From a virus, in the IMG/VR virus record IMGVR_UViG_3300044568_001017, positions 1-54,283 of that record: a DNA stretch of 54,283 nt. One strand, written 5' to 3'. Position numbers and translations under genes: made by a program. Positions 4,863 through 52,783 of the stretch are shown here, in pieces (positions within the stretch are counted from its first letter, which is position 1; each line of letters starts with the position of its first letter). The notes under the pieces are model-generated. The model made no database searches, had not been told where the DNA came from, and worked only from the letters and a program-made list of their open reading frames with translations.

Positions 4863-4883
4863 CCCAATAATCCGTAATAGTGG

Positions 4884-4921
4884 AAAGGTGGAAGACTTAA
4901 AAAATCTTCCACCTTTTTATT
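4884..4921 (+). terminator. Rho-independent terminator after the scaffold gene
   Basis: Perfect 12-bp stem, 4884-4895 with 4905-4916, 9-nt loop, followed by a T-rich tract. It separates portal-scaffold transcription from the capsid unit. Confidence 0.9.
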
Positions 4922-4928
4922 TTTTCGC

Positions 4929-4956
4929 TTGACAACAAATATAATGTTTCTATCTT
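4929..4956 (+). promoter_or_regulatory. Promoter for the capsid transcript
   Basis: TTGACA at 4929-4934, 16-nt spacer, TATCTT at 4951-4956. It lies between a strong terminator and the capsid leader. The perfect -35 and 16-nt spacing are shared by other promoter-like sites in the window. Predicted start near 4963. Confidence 0.65.
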
Positions 4957-4979
4957 TTAATCAAACGGGATATCCGACA

Positions 4980-4995
4980 TTATCGTTTACGATAA
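4980..4995. promoter_or_regulatory. Palindromic site 2, TTATCG-TTTA-CGATAA
   Basis: Copy of the 16-bp element about 17 nt downstream of the predicted start point of the capsid promoter, a position where a bound protein could act as a roadblock. Confidence 0.85.
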
Positions 4996-5001
4996 CATTA
5001 G

Positions 5002-5132
5002 GGATTCAGTCTCACCCAGACTGGCGAGTAACATCACTCGCATGAAAAGATGTTTCTGGACTGCTCTCGCAAGAGAGATTCGGGGTTGAATCCAGCCGAA
5101 GAAAACAAAGCACTCGCTTTGACATTCTTCGG
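5002..5132 (+). ncRNA. Structured 5' leader of the capsid mRNA
   Basis: Non-coding leader with many perfect stems: 5007-5012/5018-5023; 5024-5029/5036-5041; 5064-5068/5073-5077 closing a GCAA tetraloop; 5106-5111/5116-5121. GGATT (5002-5006) can pair with AATCC (5089-5093) to close a multibranch junction. CCGAA (5096-5100) can pair upstream with TTCGG (5079-5083), or as the longer CCGAAGAA (5096-5103) downstream with TTCTTCGG (5125-5132); the two are mutually exclusive. No known class is recognised, and it is not a tRNA. Possible roles are mRNA stabilisation or switching of capsid translation. Confidence 0.6.
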
Positions 5133-5183
5133 ACTTGTCATGGGTGCAACAACCAAACCAACTAAACCAAACAAATAAACAAA

Positions 5184-6593
5184 ATGTCAGATCAACTATA
5201 CTTCAATAGCTGTGCTGAAATTGATTCTTTCTTTCGTGAAGGCCGCGAATATTTCAACGACCTTTATGTGAAGAAACTTGTCACTAACAGTGCATACTTC
5301 ACACGTTTCGAGGAGCAAGCATGGCCTCTTAACCATACAACTGAACAGAAAGCATTCCGCTTCGGACGTGGGTTCCACGATCCTTGTACGCCTTTCCGTC
5401 AGATCACCGACACCTACTGCGAGACTGATTCTTGCGATAGCAAACCCGAAGTGATTCAACGCCCCGGCACTGAGTCCTATACTTTCGAGTTGCTCCGTAA
5501 GGAAATGACTACTGACTGGATTTGCGTTGAGAGCTTGCTCTATCGCTTGTTCCCTGCTGAAGAGATTCTTCAGTTTGAAGAGTCGAATGCTCGTATCACC
5601 AAGAATGTTCACGAAGAGTTCCTTCGTTCCAACTACATCGGTGGTTCTGGACACAAATGGATGGGTATCACTACTGATGACGGAACTTATTGCGGCCTCG
5701 TTGACGATGGCGCATGGTTCGTTCCAGAGCATACTCTCAACAACGAAGCTGGTTACGACCTCTGCGCCCTTCGCGTTAAGATCGCCGCCGCTGACCTTGG
5801 CAAGATTGCTTATCTCTCGCTTGATATGCTCGACGATGCACTCGTTGACCTCCAAGACGAAGATGACGCTTTCCGCCTTGATCTACAAGACGCAACGGGT
5901 CAACCTTTGCTCGATATCGTCATCCCTGACCCACAAGTTGGACGTGCGCTTTACTTCCAAGCGAAACGCAACAACGGTTACTGGGATGCAAACACTGATT
6001 TCGACGAGCGTCTTACCCGTCTGAAACTCGGCATCAATCGTATCATCGGCGACTACGCCTTCGGTTATGACATCAACTCCGCTCGCTTCAACGCTGACAC
6101 GGCATTCAATGCTAGTCTCCCTGCGTTCAGCGAAGGAAACCCAGCCTCATGGCCTCGCCTCGTTCGCGTTCCTCGCTACATCAAGACTGTTCTTGAGCAA
6201 GGTTGCGCTTACATTCCTAACCGCGCCTACCGCAATGCCGACTTCGGTATCTCTGTAGCTATGGTTAACAAAGCCATGTGCAAATGGACGATGCCTTCCT
6301 CGACTGGATACGGCCAAGCCCAACAAATGACCCAGAACTACGCTGGCGATTGGGATTGGAAGAATCCAGATTGGGAGTGCAACCGCTGGCGTAAAACGGG
6401 CTTCTATCAAGCCCAGTTCCGTCTTGCCGCACAGGTTAAAGACCCAACCATCATGCATAGCTTCTTGCATCGTATGCCCAAGAGCAAGAACCTCTACGGT
6501 TCCTGCTGCGAAGTGCAGACCTATATCGTTCCTGAGAACAATCAGGATTGCTATAGCTGCGCTGGTGTAGGTGACATTGTTGTGCCTTCCTAA
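5184..6593 (+). CDS. Major capsid protein (probable)
   Basis: The 469-aa product lies directly after the scaffold-like gene, under its own promoter and long structured leader, as expected for the most abundant virion protein. It is soluble, with no signal peptide or membrane segment. It is unusually rich in cysteine, including C-x2-C, CC and C-x3-C clusters near residues 70-90 and at the C-terminus, which is notable for a capsid protein and could mean disulfide or metal crosslinks. The start follows A-rich sequence without Shine-Dalgarno. The call rests on order and size. Confidence 0.7.
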   Translation: MSDQLYFNSCAEIDSFFREGREYFNDLYVKKLVTNSAYFTRFEEQAWPLNHTTEQKAFRFGRGFHDPCTPFRQITDTYCETDSCDSKPEVIQRPGTESYTFELLRKEMTTDWICVESLLYRLFPAEEILQFEESNARITKNVHEEFLRSNYIGGSGHKWMGITTDDGTYCGLVDDGAWFVPEHTLNNEAGYDLCALRVKIAAADLGKIAYLSLDMLDDALVDLQDEDDAFRLDLQDATGQPLLDIVIPDPQVGRALYFQAKRNNGYWDANTDFDERLTRLKLGINRIIGDYAFGYDINSARFNADTAFNASLPAFSEGNPASWPRLVRVPRYIKTVLEQGCAYIPNRAYRNADFGISVAMVNKAMCKWTMPSSTGYGQAQQMTQNYAGDWDWKNPDWECNRWRKTGFYQAQFRLAAQVKDPTIMHSFLHRMPKSKNLYGSCCEVQTYIVPENNQDCYSCAGVGDIVVPS

Positions 6594-7896: not shown

Positions 7897-10725
7897 ATGG
7901 CACTTAAATTTAATCCATTTACTGGAAAGCTAGATTTTGCTGCAAGCCAAGAACCTGCTAGTCAAGCAACATATTATAAAAGTGGCAACCAGAATCTAAG
8001 TGATCCAAATACCGATATTACGTTTGACCAATTGGCAACTTGGAGTAATGGGAATAACTATATCTCGCACACACCGGGTTCTAAAGATTTCACTGTAGTA
8101 AAGAGTGGTCTATATCAATTGGAATGGAATGCTTCTATTGCAGCAAATGGAGCAACATGGAATACCGCAAATAACAAAGTAATTTCTATTGATATTACCC
8201 GTTTTCCTACCGCAGAACAAATTGTAATAGGTCAAAGTGCTATTCAAGCGAACGGTCAAACTTATACTCAGAGTGTAAATTCAACTTTTAATCTTGTTGC
8301 CGGAGATATAATTAATCTTCGTGTTCAATGCACTTGGGCAACTGCACAACCATTTGTTCAAGGAGTTCAAAACACAATTGATCTTAATACTTGGTTTACT
8401 TGGAGGTTTGTATCGTTTGATGGAAATGGAGCGGTTGGAGCAGACGGGGCAACGGGAGCGACTGGCCCCAGTGGTGGCCCAACAGGAGCGACAGGTGTAA
8501 GTGGAGCCACAGGTTCCACGGGATCAACTGGTTTGACAGGCCCACAAGGTACAACAGGCGCAACAGGATTGATTGGATCGACAGGAGCCATTGGTAGTGC
8601 TGGCTCAACAGGAGCCACGGGTGCTACGGGCGTTGCAGGAACCAACGGAACAGATGGAGCCACAGGATCGACTGGAGTCACTGGCGTTATTGGATTAACT
8701 GGAACAACTGGCGCAACTGGAACCTCTGGAACAAACGGGACTACAGGAGCCACGGGCGTTTCTGGGAGTGATGGCGCAACAGGCGCAACAGGAAATGTTG
8801 GTGGTCAAGGTAGCACTGGAGCTACTGGCCCGGCGGCAAACACATCTACATTCGTGCAGAAAACTGGCGACACGATGACTGGGAAGTTGAATCTTCCAGC
8901 TTCAACCTCGTCTTCAGTTCCATTAAATTTAGGCAATGGAGTTTCACCAACAACAACAGTTGCAGGAGATGTATTTTCATCTGGGAATAATATATTCTTT
9001 AAAGGCACAACAGGCGGCCCATATATTTTTGCTTACAAAAATGACACGAATACATTTCTTGTCCCTCAAATAATTAACACTGTATCTCCGACTGGAGACT
9101 CTGCCCCAGCACTTCGCATAACGCAAGCTGGAGGAGGGGAGGCGTTGCGCGTAGAAGACCAGACTACCCCTGATTCTACAGCTTTTGTTGTATCAACTTC
9201 TGGAAGAGTCGGCGTTGGAGTAACGCCTGATGCAACAGTTTCGCTTTCAATAGATACTACTGGAATTAAGTTCGGTGACGGCACTATTCAAACAACCGCT
9301 ACAATCGCTGGTGCAACTGGTGCAACGGGAGCAGGAACGACAGGAGCAACTGGTGCGACTGGAACTTCTGGTGGACAAGGTAGTACGGGAGCCACTGGTT
9401 TGTCTGGCAATGACGGAGCCACGGGAGCGACAGGATTGACGGGCGCAACGGGAATTTCTGGAATTGATGGAGCAACTGGTTCCACGGGAGCAACAGGGAT
9501 AGCTGGACTTGATGGATCGACTGGTGCTACTGGGGTTTCTGGAGCAGATGGAGCGACAGGTGCGACAGGAACACAAGGTGATGTCGGGGCAACTGGAGCC
9601 ACGGGTGCTACTGGAATTGCTGGAGATATTGGTTCTACAGGAGCTACTGGTGTTGCCGGGTTAGACGGAGCAACAGGCGCGACTGGCGTTGCTGGCGATG
9701 TCGGAGCGACTGGCGCGACAGGCGTTGCAGGCGGTCAAGGCTCTACGGGTGCAACGGGCGTTACTGGAAATGACGGGGCGACTGGCTCCACAGGAGCTAC
9801 GGGCGTTATTGGCGATACAGGATCGACAGGAGCAACGGGTGTTGCTGGAGCAGATGGAGCTACAGGATCGACAGGAGCCACTGGCGCGACTGGCGCGAGC
9901 GGTGCAGATGGAACAGGGACTGCATATTACGGACAAGTCTCCCGAATCACAAACGGCACAATATCAATCGCTACTGCTGGGACATATCAATCAACCGGAT
10001 TAACCGCTACGCTCGATTCTGAAAACTTTGGAGTGAGCCTTGGGACAACAGATAGCTTTGCTGTAAAGAATACATCTGGTTCCGCGCAACTTTTCAAAAT
10101 CTACGGATCGGCAGATATTGATGCAGGAAACAATAGGGTTCTTGGAATTAAATTGGCACTTAATGGAACTCCGATTGACAATACAGAGTGCAATGCGTCA
10201 ACTGGACAAGGAACTACTTTTGCAAAACTTGTTACAAATTGGATGATCGAATTGCAACCGAATGACGAGGTTGCCTTGTTCGTTACAAACAAAACTACCG
10301 CTGGAAATGTTACCTTGTTGCGCGGCAGGTTGGTTGCATCAACTGTTGGACGGCAAGGAGAAGAGGGTGCTACGGGAGTTGCTGGGGCTACGGGTGATGT
10401 AGGGGCTACCGGATTAACTGGCGCAACTGGAGTGCAAGGCAATGTTGGTTCTACAGGTGCAACAGGTATCCAAGGTGATACAGGCTCGACTGGAGCCACG
10501 GGTGTTGCTGGTGTGGATGGGGCTACAGGGGCTACTGGTGCTACAGGAGTAGGAACACAAGGTTCGACGGGAGCAACTGGTTCTACCCCAGCCAATATTG
10601 TTCTTTCAGACACCACCGCCGCGCAAGGAGGGACTCAACTGCTTAACATGGTTCAAATAACTCAAGGGGCATACAACGCAATTGGAACTCCAACCTCAAA
10701 TACGCTTTACATCATCGTCGGATGA
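7897..10725 (+). CDS. Collagen-like tail or head fibre
   Basis: The 942-aa protein alternates globular and collagen-like parts. Residues 1-180 look like a C1q/TNF-type beta domain. Gly-X-Y repeats, mostly G-A-T, G-S-T and G-V-x, occupy about 180-313, 468-673 and 818-905. Residues 313-468 carry a fibre-shaft start ([10 protein letters not shown]) as in many phage tail fibres, and 673-818 form a second C1q-like beta domain. The repeats begin with GPSGGPTG, which breaks the Gly register, and the same break is found in two other fibres downstream. Threonine is the dominant Y residue. A trimeric fibre for host binding is the likely role. Confidence 0.85.
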
Positions 10726-12874: not shown

Positions 12875-14098
<1,224 letters not shown>

Positions 14099-42214: not shown

Positions 42215-42417
42215 TTGGTGAATTGTATCTCGTCTAGCATTTCAGATGGATCGCGCCACCCGTTTGCCATTGCCTCTATCCATAATGCTGGATCAATTGT
42301 AGCTGTATGCGTCCATCCATCTCGCAATTTTTTCTCTATTGCTAGAGTTTCTTGCGCCGCATGAATCTTCACTGTCCCTTCTTTAGAGAAGATAAATAAC
42401 ATGGTGTCTAAAATCAT
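42211..42417 (-). CDS. Small hypothetical protein, 68 aa
   Basis: The start at 42417 is fixed by ATGA overlap with the glycosyltransferase stop, and the end by ATGA overlap with the deaminase start. It has a hydrophobic start (MILDTMLFIFS) and an amphipathic, Trp-containing rest (DPALWIEAMANGWRDPSEML). Unrecognised; position suggests a partner of one neighbour. Confidence 0.6.
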   Translation of the reverse strand: MILDTMLFIFSKEGTVKIHAAQETLAIEKKLRDGWTHTATIDPALWIEAMANGWRDPSEMLDEIQFTK

Positions 42418-43310
42418 AGGTTGTTTATGTAATTGATCCATTCATTACGAATGATAGCCCAGTCTATTGATTTCCCTATTTCATAGGATTCATTACAGAG
42501 TGTTCTATAATAAGAAGAATCTGCTTTCATTTTTTCTATTTCGTAAACTGCTTTGTAGATGAATCCTTCTTCATCTAATGGGAGAAGTTTACCTCCCCCA
42601 TTTTTGAGGTATTCTGGTGCTATTCCAGTAGGAGTCCCAAGTACAGGTATTCCACAAGAGAATGCTTCTAACATTGGGTATGGATTACCTTCTACTAAGG
42701 AGGCAAAGATAACCAATCCTATTTGGTTGTACATTTGTTCAACTGCAAGGAAGTTAACTGATTCACTTTTTATTAATTGAAGGTTTGTTTTTTCAGCTAT
42801 TACATCTATTAAATGCCCACGTTTAACGTCATATCCTTGGTCTATTCTTTGTGATTTAGCAAAACTTCCTATGTTCTTTAGTTCTGAACTATTATTTTTA
42901 GGATATTGGTTTTGGAATGTTCCTATCCTTAGTAGGCTTGGAACTCTACCTACCCCATGAGATAGTGATACATTTTGAAGCAATGGTGCTATGGCTGCGT
43001 AACCTCCTAGTTTATCAAACCAATCCTTCTTTCCTTCTCTAACTGGATTATAAACATCACAATCTTGGTGAAGAACGCCTATTGTTCTTTCTAGTGGGAC
43101 TCCGTATCTTTCATGGATTAAGAAGCATCCATAAGGAATTGACATGATATAGTCATATTTCTTTAAGAATAAGTCAAAATCTTTATGTGTGTATTGGTTG
43201 TTCCAGCAAGCAATGTCGCAATAGATGTCAGGGTGTAATGCTTTGATTAACTCATTATGAATCTTCCCAAATACCCATCCGTTGTGAATAAAGAATAAAA
43301 CCTTTTTCAT
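42414..43310 (-). CDS. Glycosyltransferase (GT-B, family 4-like)
   Basis: The 298-aa protein has the C-terminal GT-B donor-site region: VIFASLVEGNPYPMLEAFSCGIPVLGTPTG (about 210-240), with the E-x7-E type spacing (E-GNPYPML-E). The N-terminal domain is short. It likely transfers a sugar to a virion or host surface target. It overlaps the FkbM methyltransferase upstream as ATGA and is translated with it. Acceptor unknown. Confidence 0.75.
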   Translation of the reverse strand: MKKVLFFIHNGWVFGKIHNELIKALHPDIYCDIACWNNQYTHKDFDLFLKKYDYIMSIPYGCFLIHERYGVPLERTIGVLHQDCDVYNPVREGKKDWFDKLGGYAAIAPLLQNVSLSHGVGRVPSLLRIGTFQNQYPKNNSSELKNIGSFAKSQRIDQGYDVKRGHLIDVIAEKTNLQLIKSESVNFLAVEQMYNQIGLVIFASLVEGNPYPMLEAFSCGIPVLGTPTGIAPEYLKNGGGKLLPLDEEGFIYKAVYEIEKMKADSSYYRTLCNESYEIGKSIDWAIIRNEWINYINNL

Positions 43311-43906
43311 TTAGTTATAGTTAGATTTTCCGAATGGAATTTTATATTAGGAAACATCTTGTGAAGTGAGAATGCAATTTTATCTATCTGATTGGTATTT
43401 CCGTACCTTCCTACGATATATTCTACTGTTATTGAATTACAGGATATTTTATTAGCAAGAATGCTTTTTGCTACTTCTTTAAATATAATGTGATCATGTC
43501 CCTCTGTGTCTATTTTAAGAATGTCAATATGATCTATATTGTATTTAGATATAAGATTATCAAATGATATGACGTTGATCTTCTTTGATTCTATAATTGA
43601 TAAGGGAACTCCAAAGTTATTAAGATAGTGTACTACAACAACGTGAGGTTCATTTATCTTGCTGCATCCCTTTATCCACATTGGAAGATTATGTGATATA
43701 ATCTTTTCTTCTGGAACATAGAATATATCAATTGATCCATCCTTATCTGAACAGGCTGAGTTTTCCTTTTGGATGTTTTCTCCAGATGGAAGCCTGTTTA
43801 AGTACTCTTCCATTGGTTCAACTAGAAGATAGTTTTTATCTTTAGAGAATACTCCATCAGCAACTTCAAAGTCACACGTCCCTATATCTACATAGTCGTA
43901 GTTCAT
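43307..43906 (-). CDS. FkbM-family methyltransferase
   Basis: The 199-aa protein shows FkbM-type signatures: YVDIGTCDFE at the N-terminus for SAM binding, then ISFDNLIS and IDILKIDTEGHD (about 126-138). These enzymes O-methylate sugars. Coded between two glycosyltransferases with ATGA overlaps, it probably modifies the sugar they add. It is somewhat shorter than typical FkbM proteins. Confidence 0.8.
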   Translation of the reverse strand: MNYDYVDIGTCDFEVADGVFSKDKNYLLVEPMEEYLNRLPSGENIQKENSACSDKDGSIDIFYVPEEKIISHNLPMWIKGCSKINEPHVVVVHYLNNFGVPLSIIESKKINVISFDNLISKYNIDHIDILKIDTEGHDHIIFKEVAKSILANKISCNSITVEYIVGRYGNTNQIDKIAFSLHKMFPNIKFHSENLTITK

Positions 43907-45009
43907 GGATAGTATTTGTAGAGTGAGTTAAGTCCGTTCCCGTCTGCGTACCATCCCCGACCTTGGTAGATGTCTAGGATGTCATTGAAGTATTTCTCGT
44001 ACATTGGAGCTACTTTATCTAAGGTGAAGTTCTTGCCGAAGGCTAGGCAGTCTTGTGGTCTGATTTTCTTAATATTGTGCATGGCATCTATGAAGTCACC
44101 CATAGTCCTGCATCGGTATCCTGTGATCCCGTGTGGGTTGTTTTCAGCGAAGCAGCCCCAGTCTGTAGTTAGGGTAGGAGTACCAGAGAGTAAGTTCTCT
44201 ACTTGGACTCCCCCGAAGGGTTCTACATACATTGAGGGGATGAAGGAAGCTGTGGCGTTGGACATTAACTTCTTTCTCATGTTAACGTCTGCGTAGCCTA
44301 CATATTCAACGTGATCTGGGAGTTTGTAACCTTCCTCTTTTTGCCCAGCTATCACTAGTCTTTTACCTAAGATTTCAGTCGCTTGAATAGCAACTTCAAC
44401 TCCCTTACCAGAATATACCCGACCAAGGTAAAGATAGTAATCCTCTTTTTTCTCGTTATAATCGAAATCATCAAGATCAAAATAGTTGGGTATGACAACT
44501 TCATACCAGTCTTGTCTACAGGAACCTACACCTTGCATACCAGCATAAGCATGGTAGATGGCATAGGATTCAAATACTTTAAATCGCGCCCAGTGACCAC
44601 CAGCATATCCAATGCCGGGTTCAACTACAATCATATCTTGATGAGCGTCACAGATCGGTCTGACTCCTGATCCCCAAAAGGGGAGAATAAAGTCATGTTT
44701 TTGTTTTCTCTTACCTACTTCTTTAATAGCGTTTTTATAGAAGGTTTGATAAGCATGATCGTTAGTATCAAACTTAAAAAATGTCTTACGCCAGTCATGG
44801 CTTCCATAGGATTTCTTAAAGTCATCATTGGTTAATACAGTAACGTGTTCAGTGCATGGTAAGTCTGAGTCTTCATGCCCGTAGTGGATGACTTCATGCC
44901 CACGTTCCGTCATCATCTTTCCGAATTTAACTACCTTTTGTGTATAAGCACAGGCATTAAACTCTTTAGATGAGACCGTGTGAGGAAGCCCTAAAATATG
45001 GTATCTCAT
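43903..45009 (-). CDS. Glycosyltransferase (GT-B type)
   Basis: The 368-aa protein has a GT-B layout: GRVYSGKGVEVAIQA with RLVIAGQKEEGYKL (about 190-225) starting the donor domain, and FIPSMYVEPFGGVQVENLLSGTP (about 255-277), which carries the E-x7-E motif of retaining GT-B enzymes. It is the first of the three-gene sugar cluster. Function as above; acceptor unknown. Confidence 0.8.
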   Translation of the reverse strand: MRYHILGLPHTVSSKEFNACAYTQKVVKFGKMMTERGHEVIHYGHEDSDLPCTEHVTVLTNDDFKKSYGSHDWRKTFFKFDTNDHAYQTFYKNAIKEVGKRKQKHDFILPFWGSGVRPICDAHQDMIVVEPGIGYAGGHWARFKVFESYAIYHAYAGMQGVGSCRQDWYEVVIPNYFDLDDFDYNEKKEDYYLYLGRVYSGKGVEVAIQATEILGKRLVIAGQKEEGYKLPDHVEYVGYADVNMRKKLMSNATASFIPSMYVEPFGGVQVENLLSGTPTLTTDWGCFAENNPHGITGYRCRTMGDFIDAMHNIKKIRPQDCLAFGKNFTLDKVAPMYEKYFNDILDIYQGRGWYADGNGLNSLYKYYP

Positions 45010-50510: not shown

Positions 50511-52361
50511 TTACCAATCTCCATTCTCATCAGATGAATAGCTGTCATCTTGAAGTTCTGCAATTAGCTTTTCATCTCTAGCCCAGAATCTATTTGTAGG
50601 AACAGCTTTATCGTTACCGATAAAAACCAATCCAAACCTACGAGACATTTCTAGGCAGTAGAGAAAGCTATCCGCCAAATCGGGCGAGTATCCAGTGCGT
50701 CCCTTGTAGTCATCTTTAGTCTCTACAGAAATCTTTTTGGATTTAATAAAATACCTACGGATACAAAGTTCTCGCGCCAACTCAGACGCTGCGCCAACCC
50801 CGTAGATCACTCGGCTCTTAAAGCCGTGATAGGCTGAGTACCAGTACTCTGATACCAATCTATCATAAACATCCTTACACGGGCGTTTATCGACCTCTGC
50901 TGCCATACGTTCAGTAGGTTTACCCATAGATGAAATAAGGGCGATAGAATGACCACTAGAATCATACTTCAACCACTCGCGGATGATAGCCTGTGCGACT
51001 CGACCGCCATCACCAGATACGTCCATACCAAATTTGGTAGGTTGAACTCCAGAAGCCCGGCATAGCTCTACTACTTCCTTAGCTAGACCAACTTCAAACT
51101 CAGCGGCTTCACGCGCAGATAGCTGAATGACTTTCTGACTTTCTAGCCACATAACACGATTGCGAGTCCCGCGAATGAAACCCAGTTTAGCTATTGTAAG
51201 CACACACCTATCTCCACCAACCGTAAAAGCGGTATCGAATCCCGCAACCTTGTGGAATCCTTCTGAATCCCAGAGTGGTTCTTCGTTGGTATCGGCGTTA
51301 CGAATGAGATCAGCGGTGAGAATGGTCTGTGCAAACCCAGATTTCGGCCACCAACCGATAGCGTTACGAACGTAGTCAATCGCATTCTCGTCTCCATAAC
51401 ACTGCTTGAGCATGACCTCTTGTTTTTTCCGATCCATCAAGAACGGGAATGGAGATGGTTCATTTGCGGGTGCAGCAAAGTTAGGCGAGCGCATACCATT
51501 GTAGAACAAGCAAACGCCAGTCTCAGTCTCCCACTTATCCATCTCTGGACTGACAGTATCAAAATTAGAAGCACCTTTAGGCATAGCCCAGCGGGTGTGA
51601 GGATTGTCACCAGCAGATGGGTTTCCAATACCGATAAAGACTACATCATTGTTAGCAGATAAGTTTACACGGGCAGTAATCGCACCCAGTTCCATTTCGG
51701 GCAACTCATCAAGGGCTAGTCTAATCCGATCATTCTTACGTCCACGGGTAGTATCAATAGCCTTCTGACCCTCATTACCTGATTGAAATGCCAGAGCTTT
51801 GATGGCATTGCGATAGTCCTTATCCTCATCATTCGACCCGCCACCCCAAACGATCATGTGGCGATAGTCAATGAGCTTACCAAACTGAACAGCGGCGGAC
51901 TTCCACAACTTAGAAATGATACCCCAGATACGATCTTCGGACGCACCAAGAGTAGTAGTAGCAACCCAAGATGAAGTACAATGCGGAGCAGAACACCAAT
52001 CAAGGTAGACCCAAAGACCAACTGGAAATGACTTTCCCATCGAGGCCGCGCCAGCTAAACAGATGTCATCATTATTGCAGAGTTCTTCCAGAGTTCTCAA
52101 CAACTGAGTATTCGTATAACCTCGATTGACAATAGAAACTTCCGTGGGCCATTGAAGTTTTACTGCCTTCAAGAAATGTTCGTATGGAGTAAGTAATTTA
52201 AAATCTGAAAGATTTATATTGTGCTTGTTGCAGTAATCTTTTCCGTATTCACCCTTGCTAATAGCGTAGCAGTATAGCTCTACACCTAGCTCGTCCATGT
52301 TCTCAGGGAATTTGATACCGTACTTTTGGATGCCTGTGTTTCCAGAAAAAATTCTTGACAT
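50511..52361 (-). CDS. Large terminase subunit
   Basis: The 616-aa protein has an ATPase domain with Walker A-like GAASMGKS (about 104-111) and LALDELPEME (about 223-232; acidic pair). A nuclease domain follows, with GFDTAF (about 374-379), GMDVSGDGG (about 445-453) and SPDLADSFLY (about 558-567), giving the three acidic positions of RNase-H-fold terminases. It cuts and pumps DNA into the procapsid through the portal. It is convergent with the 50510 gene and its start overlaps the -35 of the late promoter. Contains palindromic site 17. Confidence 0.85.
   Translation of the reverse strand: MSRIFSGNTGIQKYGIKFPENMDELGVELYCYAISKGEYGKDYCNKHNINLSDFKLLTPYEHFLKAVKLQWPTEVSIVNRGYTNTQLLRTLEELCNNDDICLAGAASMGKSFPVGLWVYLDWCSAPHCTSSWVATTTLGASEDRIWGIISKLWKSAAVQFGKLIDYRHMIVWGGGSNDEDKDYRNAIKALAFQSGNEGQKAIDTTRGRKNDRIRLALDELPEMELGAITARVNLSANNDVVFIGIGNPSAGDNPHTRWAMPKGASNFDTVSPEMDKWETETGVCLFYNGMRSPNFAAPANEPSPFPFLMDRKKQEVMLKQCYGDENAIDYVRNAIGWWPKSGFAQTILTADLIRNADTNEEPLWDSEGFHKVAGFDTAFTVGGDRCVLTIAKLGFIRGTRNRVMWLESQKVIQLSAREAAEFEVGLAKEVVELCRASGVQPTKFGMDVSGDGGRVAQAIIREWLKYDSSGHSIALISSMGKPTERMAAEVDKRPCKDVYDRLVSEYWYSAYHGFKSRVIYGVGAASELARELCIRRYFIKSKKISVETKDDYKGRTGYSPDLADSFLYCLEMSRRFGLVFIGNDKAVPTNRFWARDEKLIAELQDDSYSSDENGDW
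50608..50623. promoter_or_regulatory. Palindromic site 17, TTATCG-TTAC-CGATAA (intragenic)
   Basis: Outer hexamers perfect; near the 3' end of the terminase gene. Confidence 0.8.
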
Positions 52362-52397: not shown

Positions 52398-52775
52398 ATG
52401 AAACTCAAAAATAGAAACCTATCTCCAGTTGGCGGGTGGTACTACAAATACGAGATCAAGCGTGATAAACTCACCTTCCCAGCCGTAGTCTACGGAAGCA
52501 CATGGAGCAACTTGATTTCAAACATCCAAAAAGATTGCCGATCAAATGGAGTAGAAATTCCCAGTAACATTGAGCAACTTGTCGAAGATCAAATCTGCCA
52601 ACGCCAGCCAAGTGATCGTTGCTGGTATGCTGATGGGATTGGAGATAGAATCGCGCAAGCAATCCATACTGTAGCAGCGGTCACAGACAGGGTGCTTGGC
52701 ACTAAACTAGAACACAAAGCAAGGGGATGCAGTTCATGCAATAGAAGAAGAAATGCCTTGAATTCATTATCGTAA
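52398..52775 (+). CDS. Small cysteine-containing phage protein, complete
   Basis: The 125-aa protein has an aromatic N-terminal half (GGWYYKYEIKRDKLTFPAVV) and a basic tail with CSSC that may be half of a zinc site. It lies just before the portal or, in the second allele, the HNH gene. Its last third is repeated at the left end of the window. Function unknown; position suggests packaging or portal assembly. Confidence 0.7.
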   Translation: MKLKNRNLSPVGGWYYKYEIKRDKLTFPAVVYGSTWSNLISNIQKDCRSNGVEIPSNIEQLVEDQICQRQPSDRCWYADGIGDRIAQAIHTVAAVTDRVLGTKLEHKARGCSSCNRRRNALNSLS

Positions 52776-52783
52776 ACGATAAA
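52657..52783. repeat. Right copy of the exact 127-nt repeat
   Basis: Identical to 1-127. It is followed here by the HNH gene rather than by the 16-nt gap to the portal found at the left end. Confidence 0.9.
52767..52782. promoter_or_regulatory. Palindromic site 18 (same as site 1), TTATCG-TAAA-CGATAA
   Basis: Contains the stop of the 52398 gene and precedes the HNH start by 1 nt. Confidence 0.85.

Follow-up and report, generated by a model that had tools for sequence, protein, structure and literature searches.

Does the region in front of the probable capsid gene of an uncultured phage encode an RNA with two exclusive folds, and what might such an RNA do there? The timing of phage structural genes is mostly credited to promoters and gene order; if a two-state RNA does precede a capsid gene, capsid dosage would become tunable after the start of transcription. 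The locus comes from the virus record of an uncultured phage, the whole 54,283 nt of which we call the window, and an original prediction made from the sequence had placed a switch-like, structured leader before the capsid gene.

The locus and its phage

The structured RNA (4998-5147) lies in the 5' leader of the probable capsid gene and is conserved among relatives. On one side it has a promoter-like site and what is probably the intrinsic terminator of the preceding gene, on the other the 469-residue gene (Table 1). The terminator is absent from our terminator scan list because its 9-nt loop exceeds the length accepted by the scan. In the promoter-like site, TATCTTTT resembles the Bacteroidota -7 promoter consensus, TAnnTTTG, and the strict pattern TTGACA-N16-TAnnTT is found in 27/104 leaders of relatives within the sequence retrieved. 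This style of promoter and the A-rich start region suggest that the host may be a member of the Bacteroidota.

The product of the downstream gene is probably the major capsid protein, judged by gene order and strong conservation; PHROGs, Pfam, the PDB profile and AlphaFold, with a poor model, gave no usable capsid support. The predicted "leader before the capsid gene" is a structured leader indeed, while the capsid identity comes from gene order and conservation, with no profile or structure match. The phage also encodes the terminase large subunit (50511-52361), collagen-like tail genes and helicases. A 942-residue protein at 7897-10725 is rich in collagen triple-helix repeats (Pfam PF01391, E 3e-50), and two glycosyltransferase group 1 genes lie on the minus strand (42414-45009) within the phage genome. 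Searches of the phage genome collection with the capsid candidate or the terminase found no relative. Near both window ends, a stretch of about 91 nt is identical (36-126 and 52692-52782), possibly a terminal repeat or the sign of a circular genome.

Table 1. Features of the leader and its surroundings (window coordinates; swap test as described in the text)
Feature	Position	Strand	Sequence or pairing	Evidence and remarks
Probable intrinsic terminator of upstream gene	4887-4925	+	GGTGGAAGA...TCTTCCACC, then T-rich	Read from sequence
Promoter-like site	4929-4958	+	TTGACA-N16-TATCTTTT	10/12 matches; 1.0 expected by chance
P0, hairpin at leader 5' end	4980-4995	+	TTATCG-TTTA-CGATAA	
P1, hairpin	5007-5023	+	CAGTC/GACTG	Swap test z 6.3, 0/5000; at most 5 pair types per position
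P2, hairpin	5024-5041	+	GCGAG/CTCGC	Paired in 100% of 70 distinct leaders; at most 4 pair types per position
PK1, pseudoknot	5031-5053	+	P2 loop ACATC (5031-5035) with GATGT (5049-5053)	Swap test z 6.8, 0/5000; two pairs E<0.05 (tree-aware test)
PK2	5056-5095	+	CTGGA (5056-5060) with TCCAG (5091-5095)	Swap test 24/5000; compensatory U-A to C-G, E 0.017
P3, variable hairpin	5064-5077	+	CTCTC-GCAA-GAGAG	Read from sequence; reduced or absent in some relatives
P4, pseudoknot with PK2	5079-5100	+	TTCGG (5079-5083) with shared strand CCGAA (5096-5100)	Swap test z 5.4, 0/5000
P5', exclusive with P4	5096-5132	+	CCGAAGAA (5096-5103) with TTCTTCGG (5125-5132)	Swap test z 8.7, 0/5000
P5, caps P5'	5106-5121	+	CAAAGC-ACTC-GCTTTG	
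PK3 (possible)	5110-5147	+	P5 loop region GCACTC (5110-5115) with GGGTGC (5142-5147)	Swap test z 4.8, 0/5000
Unstructured G-poor tail, reaching start codon	5148-5183	+	CAAA/TAAA repeats	
Gene after the leader, probable major capsid protein (469 aa)	5184-6593	+		Gene order and conservation

Architecture and covariation of the leader

Folding of the leader is better than that of all 200 dinucleotide shuffles, with z -3.5 for 4990-5145 and z -4.5 for 4998-5142. From 5' to 3', the order is P0, UUAGNG, P1, P2, PK1, PK2, P3, and P4 crossing PK2, followed by an invariant GGGUNGAN core, P5 with its extension P5', the possible PK3 and the YAAA tail. PK1 and PK2, two features that the original prediction did not contain, follow a consensus: PK1 joins the P2 loop to the segment directly 5' of YGGAC, and PK2 joins CYGGA to UCCRG, with a conserved GGGTNGAN core between its two strands. 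P3 is variable across relatives and often GNRA-capped, and in divergent relatives P0 is replaced by GC-GTGA-GC or GGC-GTGA-GCC. Over 104 leaders, G makes up 8.5% of the tail, and YAAA occurs 5.7 times per 48 nt, compared with 2.6 times in shuffled sequence.

Searching IMG/VR with the 469-residue protein gave many homologues and 104 leaders besides that of the window; the hand alignment holds 70 distinct leaders, including the window. The architecture is common to all of them and the sequence strongly variable. Their capsids are 77-100% identical to that of the window, and the covariation described below derives from one phage group, with recombination between leaders. One locus (L001) has a capsid gene nearly identical to that of the window, yet a different P3-P5 class; such differing modules on near-identical capsid genes imply that parts of the leader recombine among phages.

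Two tests of pairing were used. In the swap test, each strand was set against partners from other leaders, with equal search freedom for own and swapped partners. P1, PK1, P4 and P5' all gave 0/10000 with 22 and with 11 less related representatives, and with nine representatives P4 gave 8/10000 and P1, PK1 and P5' again 0. The second, tree-aware test is a custom one similar to R-scape, in which 60 null alignments were made by redistributing substitutions among columns along a FastTree tree; the columns of P4 and PK2 were placed directly against invariant anchors, with no adjustment for pairing, and the length of an A-run set the offset of PK1. Seven column pairs reached E<0.05, six of them within PK1, PK2 or P4, and P4 supplies three of the four strongest covariations in the alignment. 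P1 is biased in this test because its register was chosen by pairing. In addition, G-U pairs outnumber A-C pairs by 25 to 1 in P1, P2, PK1 and PK2, the bias that a sense-strand RNA would show.

We consider the predicted structure, with P1, P2, PK1, PK2/P4 and P5' backed by covariation, and the sharing of one strand well supported. PK3 is a possible element and the least certain: its covariation is weaker, and it rivals the closing pairs of P5.

One strand shared by two exclusive helices

The predicted stems are present in the window as P3, P4 and P5', and the sharing of one strand by P4 and P5', CCGAA in the window, proves to be a general property of the leader. Each of the 70 distinct leaders can form a P4 of 3 bp or more and a P5' of 5 bp or more, and the two overlap by no fewer than 3 nt. 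Across some seven sequence classes (CCGAA, CAGAG, CTCG, CCTC/CTCAGAG, TAGGA, CAGGG and CTCA), the shared strand, which lies 3' of UCCRG, co-varies with both of its partners, with matching changes on both sides. Compensatory changes in homologues, the lack of which would have spoken against the prediction, were thus found for both exclusive helices in the swap and tree-aware tests.

The junction-closing pair GGATT/AATCC (about 5002-5006 with 5089-5093), also part of the prediction, fared differently. It is formable and unconserved, and PK2, which does covary, is its competitor. The swap tests came out against it as a conserved helix (z -0.8, 4023/5000; 6814/10000 on the 22 representatives). Of the proposed two-state element, the exclusive helices and their covariation therefore stand and the junction closure falls, and a change of state in the cell would be our reading of the exclusive pairing.

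Linkage to the probable capsid gene

The leader is strictly linked to one gene. A pattern describing the RNA and blind to the gene was searched for in 2.9 million viral contigs and had at least 88 distinct occurrences; among the matches listed, the gene follows at most 1.9 kb downstream in 83 of 88, and the other five end at contig ends within 200 nt. With a second pattern for other P2 types, 19 stretches were found, and the new ones inspected showed the same context or a contig end. Every complete copy tested lies directly 5' of the capsid-candidate gene, with a conserved RNA-to-gene spacing of 172-206 nt. The covariance model detects a single copy in the window and at most one per locus, and no second copy was seen in the window or at other genes among the pattern matches listed. 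Two weak covariance-model matches (L138 and L158, 17.5 bits) are antisense within a reading frame and were set aside as chance. No relative was found in GTDB genomes.

Comparison with known RNAs

The leader matches no known element, so the second condition that would have told against the prediction did not arise either: Rfam 15 gave no match at the gathering threshold over the whole window, and a relaxed search (E<=5) of 4880-5200 gave nothing credible, with RAGATH-12 at 15.5 bits against a threshold of 75. Among the ribozyme families of Rfam there was no match for the leader, and ARAGORN found no tRNA or tmRNA in it. The literature search found no capsid leader RNA, the 224 motifs of Weinberg 2017 being compared insofar as Rfam 15 includes them. 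A ribosomal frameshift pseudoknot was rejected, the leader being intergenic, 5' of the start codon and outside any overlapping coding region. In our view the leader represents a new RNA family within a known kind, the cis-acting structured leader, although it is unusual in combining several pseudoknots and the conserved sharing of a strand with a position before a probable capsid gene.

In common with pseudoknotted strand-exchange riboswitches, it has a compact, invariant core and a strand shared by two exclusive helices in a 5' leader. It differs from them in its lack of an Rfam match and in its structural gene, and it lacks the usual platform of a terminator or masked start, as most classes have no U-run after P5' and P5' ends 51 nt from the start codon. 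The T7 gene 10 leader, also a special leader 5' of a capsid gene, is a simple RNase III-processed hairpin with a translation enhancer and, to our knowledge, has no conserved pseudoknots or exchange. Among phages, a glutamine riboswitch has been reported in marine phage Melnitz (PMC9004378).

The closest working analogue, by resemblance and with no homology implied, is the T4 gene 32 pseudoknot operator. In the published accounts of T4 and RB69, a leader pseudoknot is followed by more than 40 nt of unstructured, A-rich UUAAA/UAAA repeats up to the start codon, and gp32 nucleates on the fold of its own leader and spreads over the repeats (PMC535899, PMC3014915). The capsid leader likewise has leader pseudoknots (PK1 and PK2/P4) and an adjoining unstructured tail, G-poor and YAAA-rich, that reaches a phage start codon. 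The gene 32 operator, however, consists of one small pseudoknot (about 28 nt) to which gp32 binds, and these accounts describe no exchange of a shared strand (PMC535899, PMC3014915), whereas the capsid leader has two or three pseudoknots in about 150 nt before a probable capsid gene, and no sequence resemblance was noted. A 2010 review calls T4 gene 32 possibly the sole viral pseudoknot in translational autoregulation (PMC3014915).

Proposed strand exchange and competing explanations

Our preferred reading, to which we give an even chance, is a cis-acting leader in which a compact core and a strand-exchange module set the translation or the mRNA stability of the probable capsid gene. We infer the folding order, the trigger, the level of control (translation or stability) and the switching itself as follows. 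The core (P1, P2 with PK1, and PK2 zipped by P4) would form first, together with P4, as the polymerase moves along; strand 5125-5132, once transcribed, would capture 5096-5100 (in full, 5096-5103) from P4 to give the stable P5' hairpin; and a factor holding P4 (a small molecule or a protein of the phage) would slow or block the exchange. The balance of P4 and P5' would then set translation efficiency or mRNA stability through the unstructured, YAAA-rich approach to the start codon. Since P5' ends 51 nt and PK3 36 nt from the start codon, the exchange should not mask the start directly; with this distance, a mostly missing U-run and a G-poor YAAA tail, control of translation or mRNA stability fits better than attenuation or masking of the ribosome binding site. 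That leaves ribosome loading on the tail, mRNA stability, or a spreading protein, which as an alternative output would nucleate on the fold and spread along the YAAA repeats in a gp32-like manner. In Bacteroidota, Shine-Dalgarno pairing plays no part in translation, which is adjusted by the structure of the leader and by upstream adenines (PMC6847099).

Counting against a switch, the exchange would take place about 50 nt from the start codon in the window, without an obvious terminator, and P4, of only 3-5 bp, may form in passing during folding and have no role in regulation. More tentative, and in our estimate short of an even chance, is the proposal of a new class of switch RNA with two or three pseudoknots, which would sense a late-infection signal of phage or host and set capsid output by strand exchange. 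We know of no earlier sensing leader on a phage capsid gene. The leader is in any case a defined RNA with predicted compensatory mutations, well suited to probing and reporter assays.

Capsid genes require high expression, and the leader could simply be constitutive: a pseudoknotted cap that protects the capsid mRNA, an abundant transcript, against degradation and leaves the ribosome landing site open, with P4 as an early folding step guiding to P5' and no sensing. Partition functions, in a pseudoknot-free model that leaves pseudoknot energies out, agree with this, giving mean probabilities of 0.81 for P5' and 0.01 for P4 in full-length leaders (P5' favored in 60/70) and 0.10 for P4 in leaders ending before the displacing strand; the G-poor tail also suits Bacteroidota initiation (PMC6847099). 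Such a cap, however, has no need of a third strand that goes on matching the shared one through about seven classes, and the invariant GGGUNGAN, YGGAC and UUAGNG suggest that the RNA has a site for specific binding or tertiary contacts; we hold this explanation to be rather unlikely.

An independent non-coding RNA or ribozyme, cut from or made together with the capsid mRNA and acting in trans (for example, in packaging or assembly), would account for the promoter-like site, the preceding terminator, the compact multi-pseudoknot fold and, in the CTCG class, the UUUU directly after P5'. The constant link to the same gene at 172-206 nt speaks against it, as do the missing U-run in most classes and the lack of a ribozyme family match, which make it improbable. 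The CTCG class, with a 9-bp P5' followed by TTTT, also resembles a transcription attenuator, of which mutually exclusive pairing is typical and in which P5' would halt the polymerase unless P4 forms; no U-run follows P5' in CCGAA, CAGAG and most other classes, however, and the sense-strand scan shows no terminator at P5'. These two results rule out an intrinsic attenuator for all classes, and attenuation in general seems very improbable to us. Chance structure or a DNA-level repeat is scarcely credible: the P0 palindrome does recur as DNA throughout the genome, but the leader is single-copy in the window, its crossing helices covary in the swap and tree-aware tests, and its G-U pairs are asymmetric.

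The palindromic repeat

The palindrome TTATCG-N4-CGATAA occurs 12 times exactly in the window, with 0 expected by chance, at 111, 4980, 7597, 20900, 25853, 31135, 33449, 37052, 38795, 47609, 50608 and 52767, and several near copies are found in addition. Copies lie just 5' of the gene starts at 144, 7620, 12875, 14143, 20915 and 52784 (those at 12875 and 14143 with one mismatch each), as well as within genes. The palindrome may be an operator or another protein-binding site.
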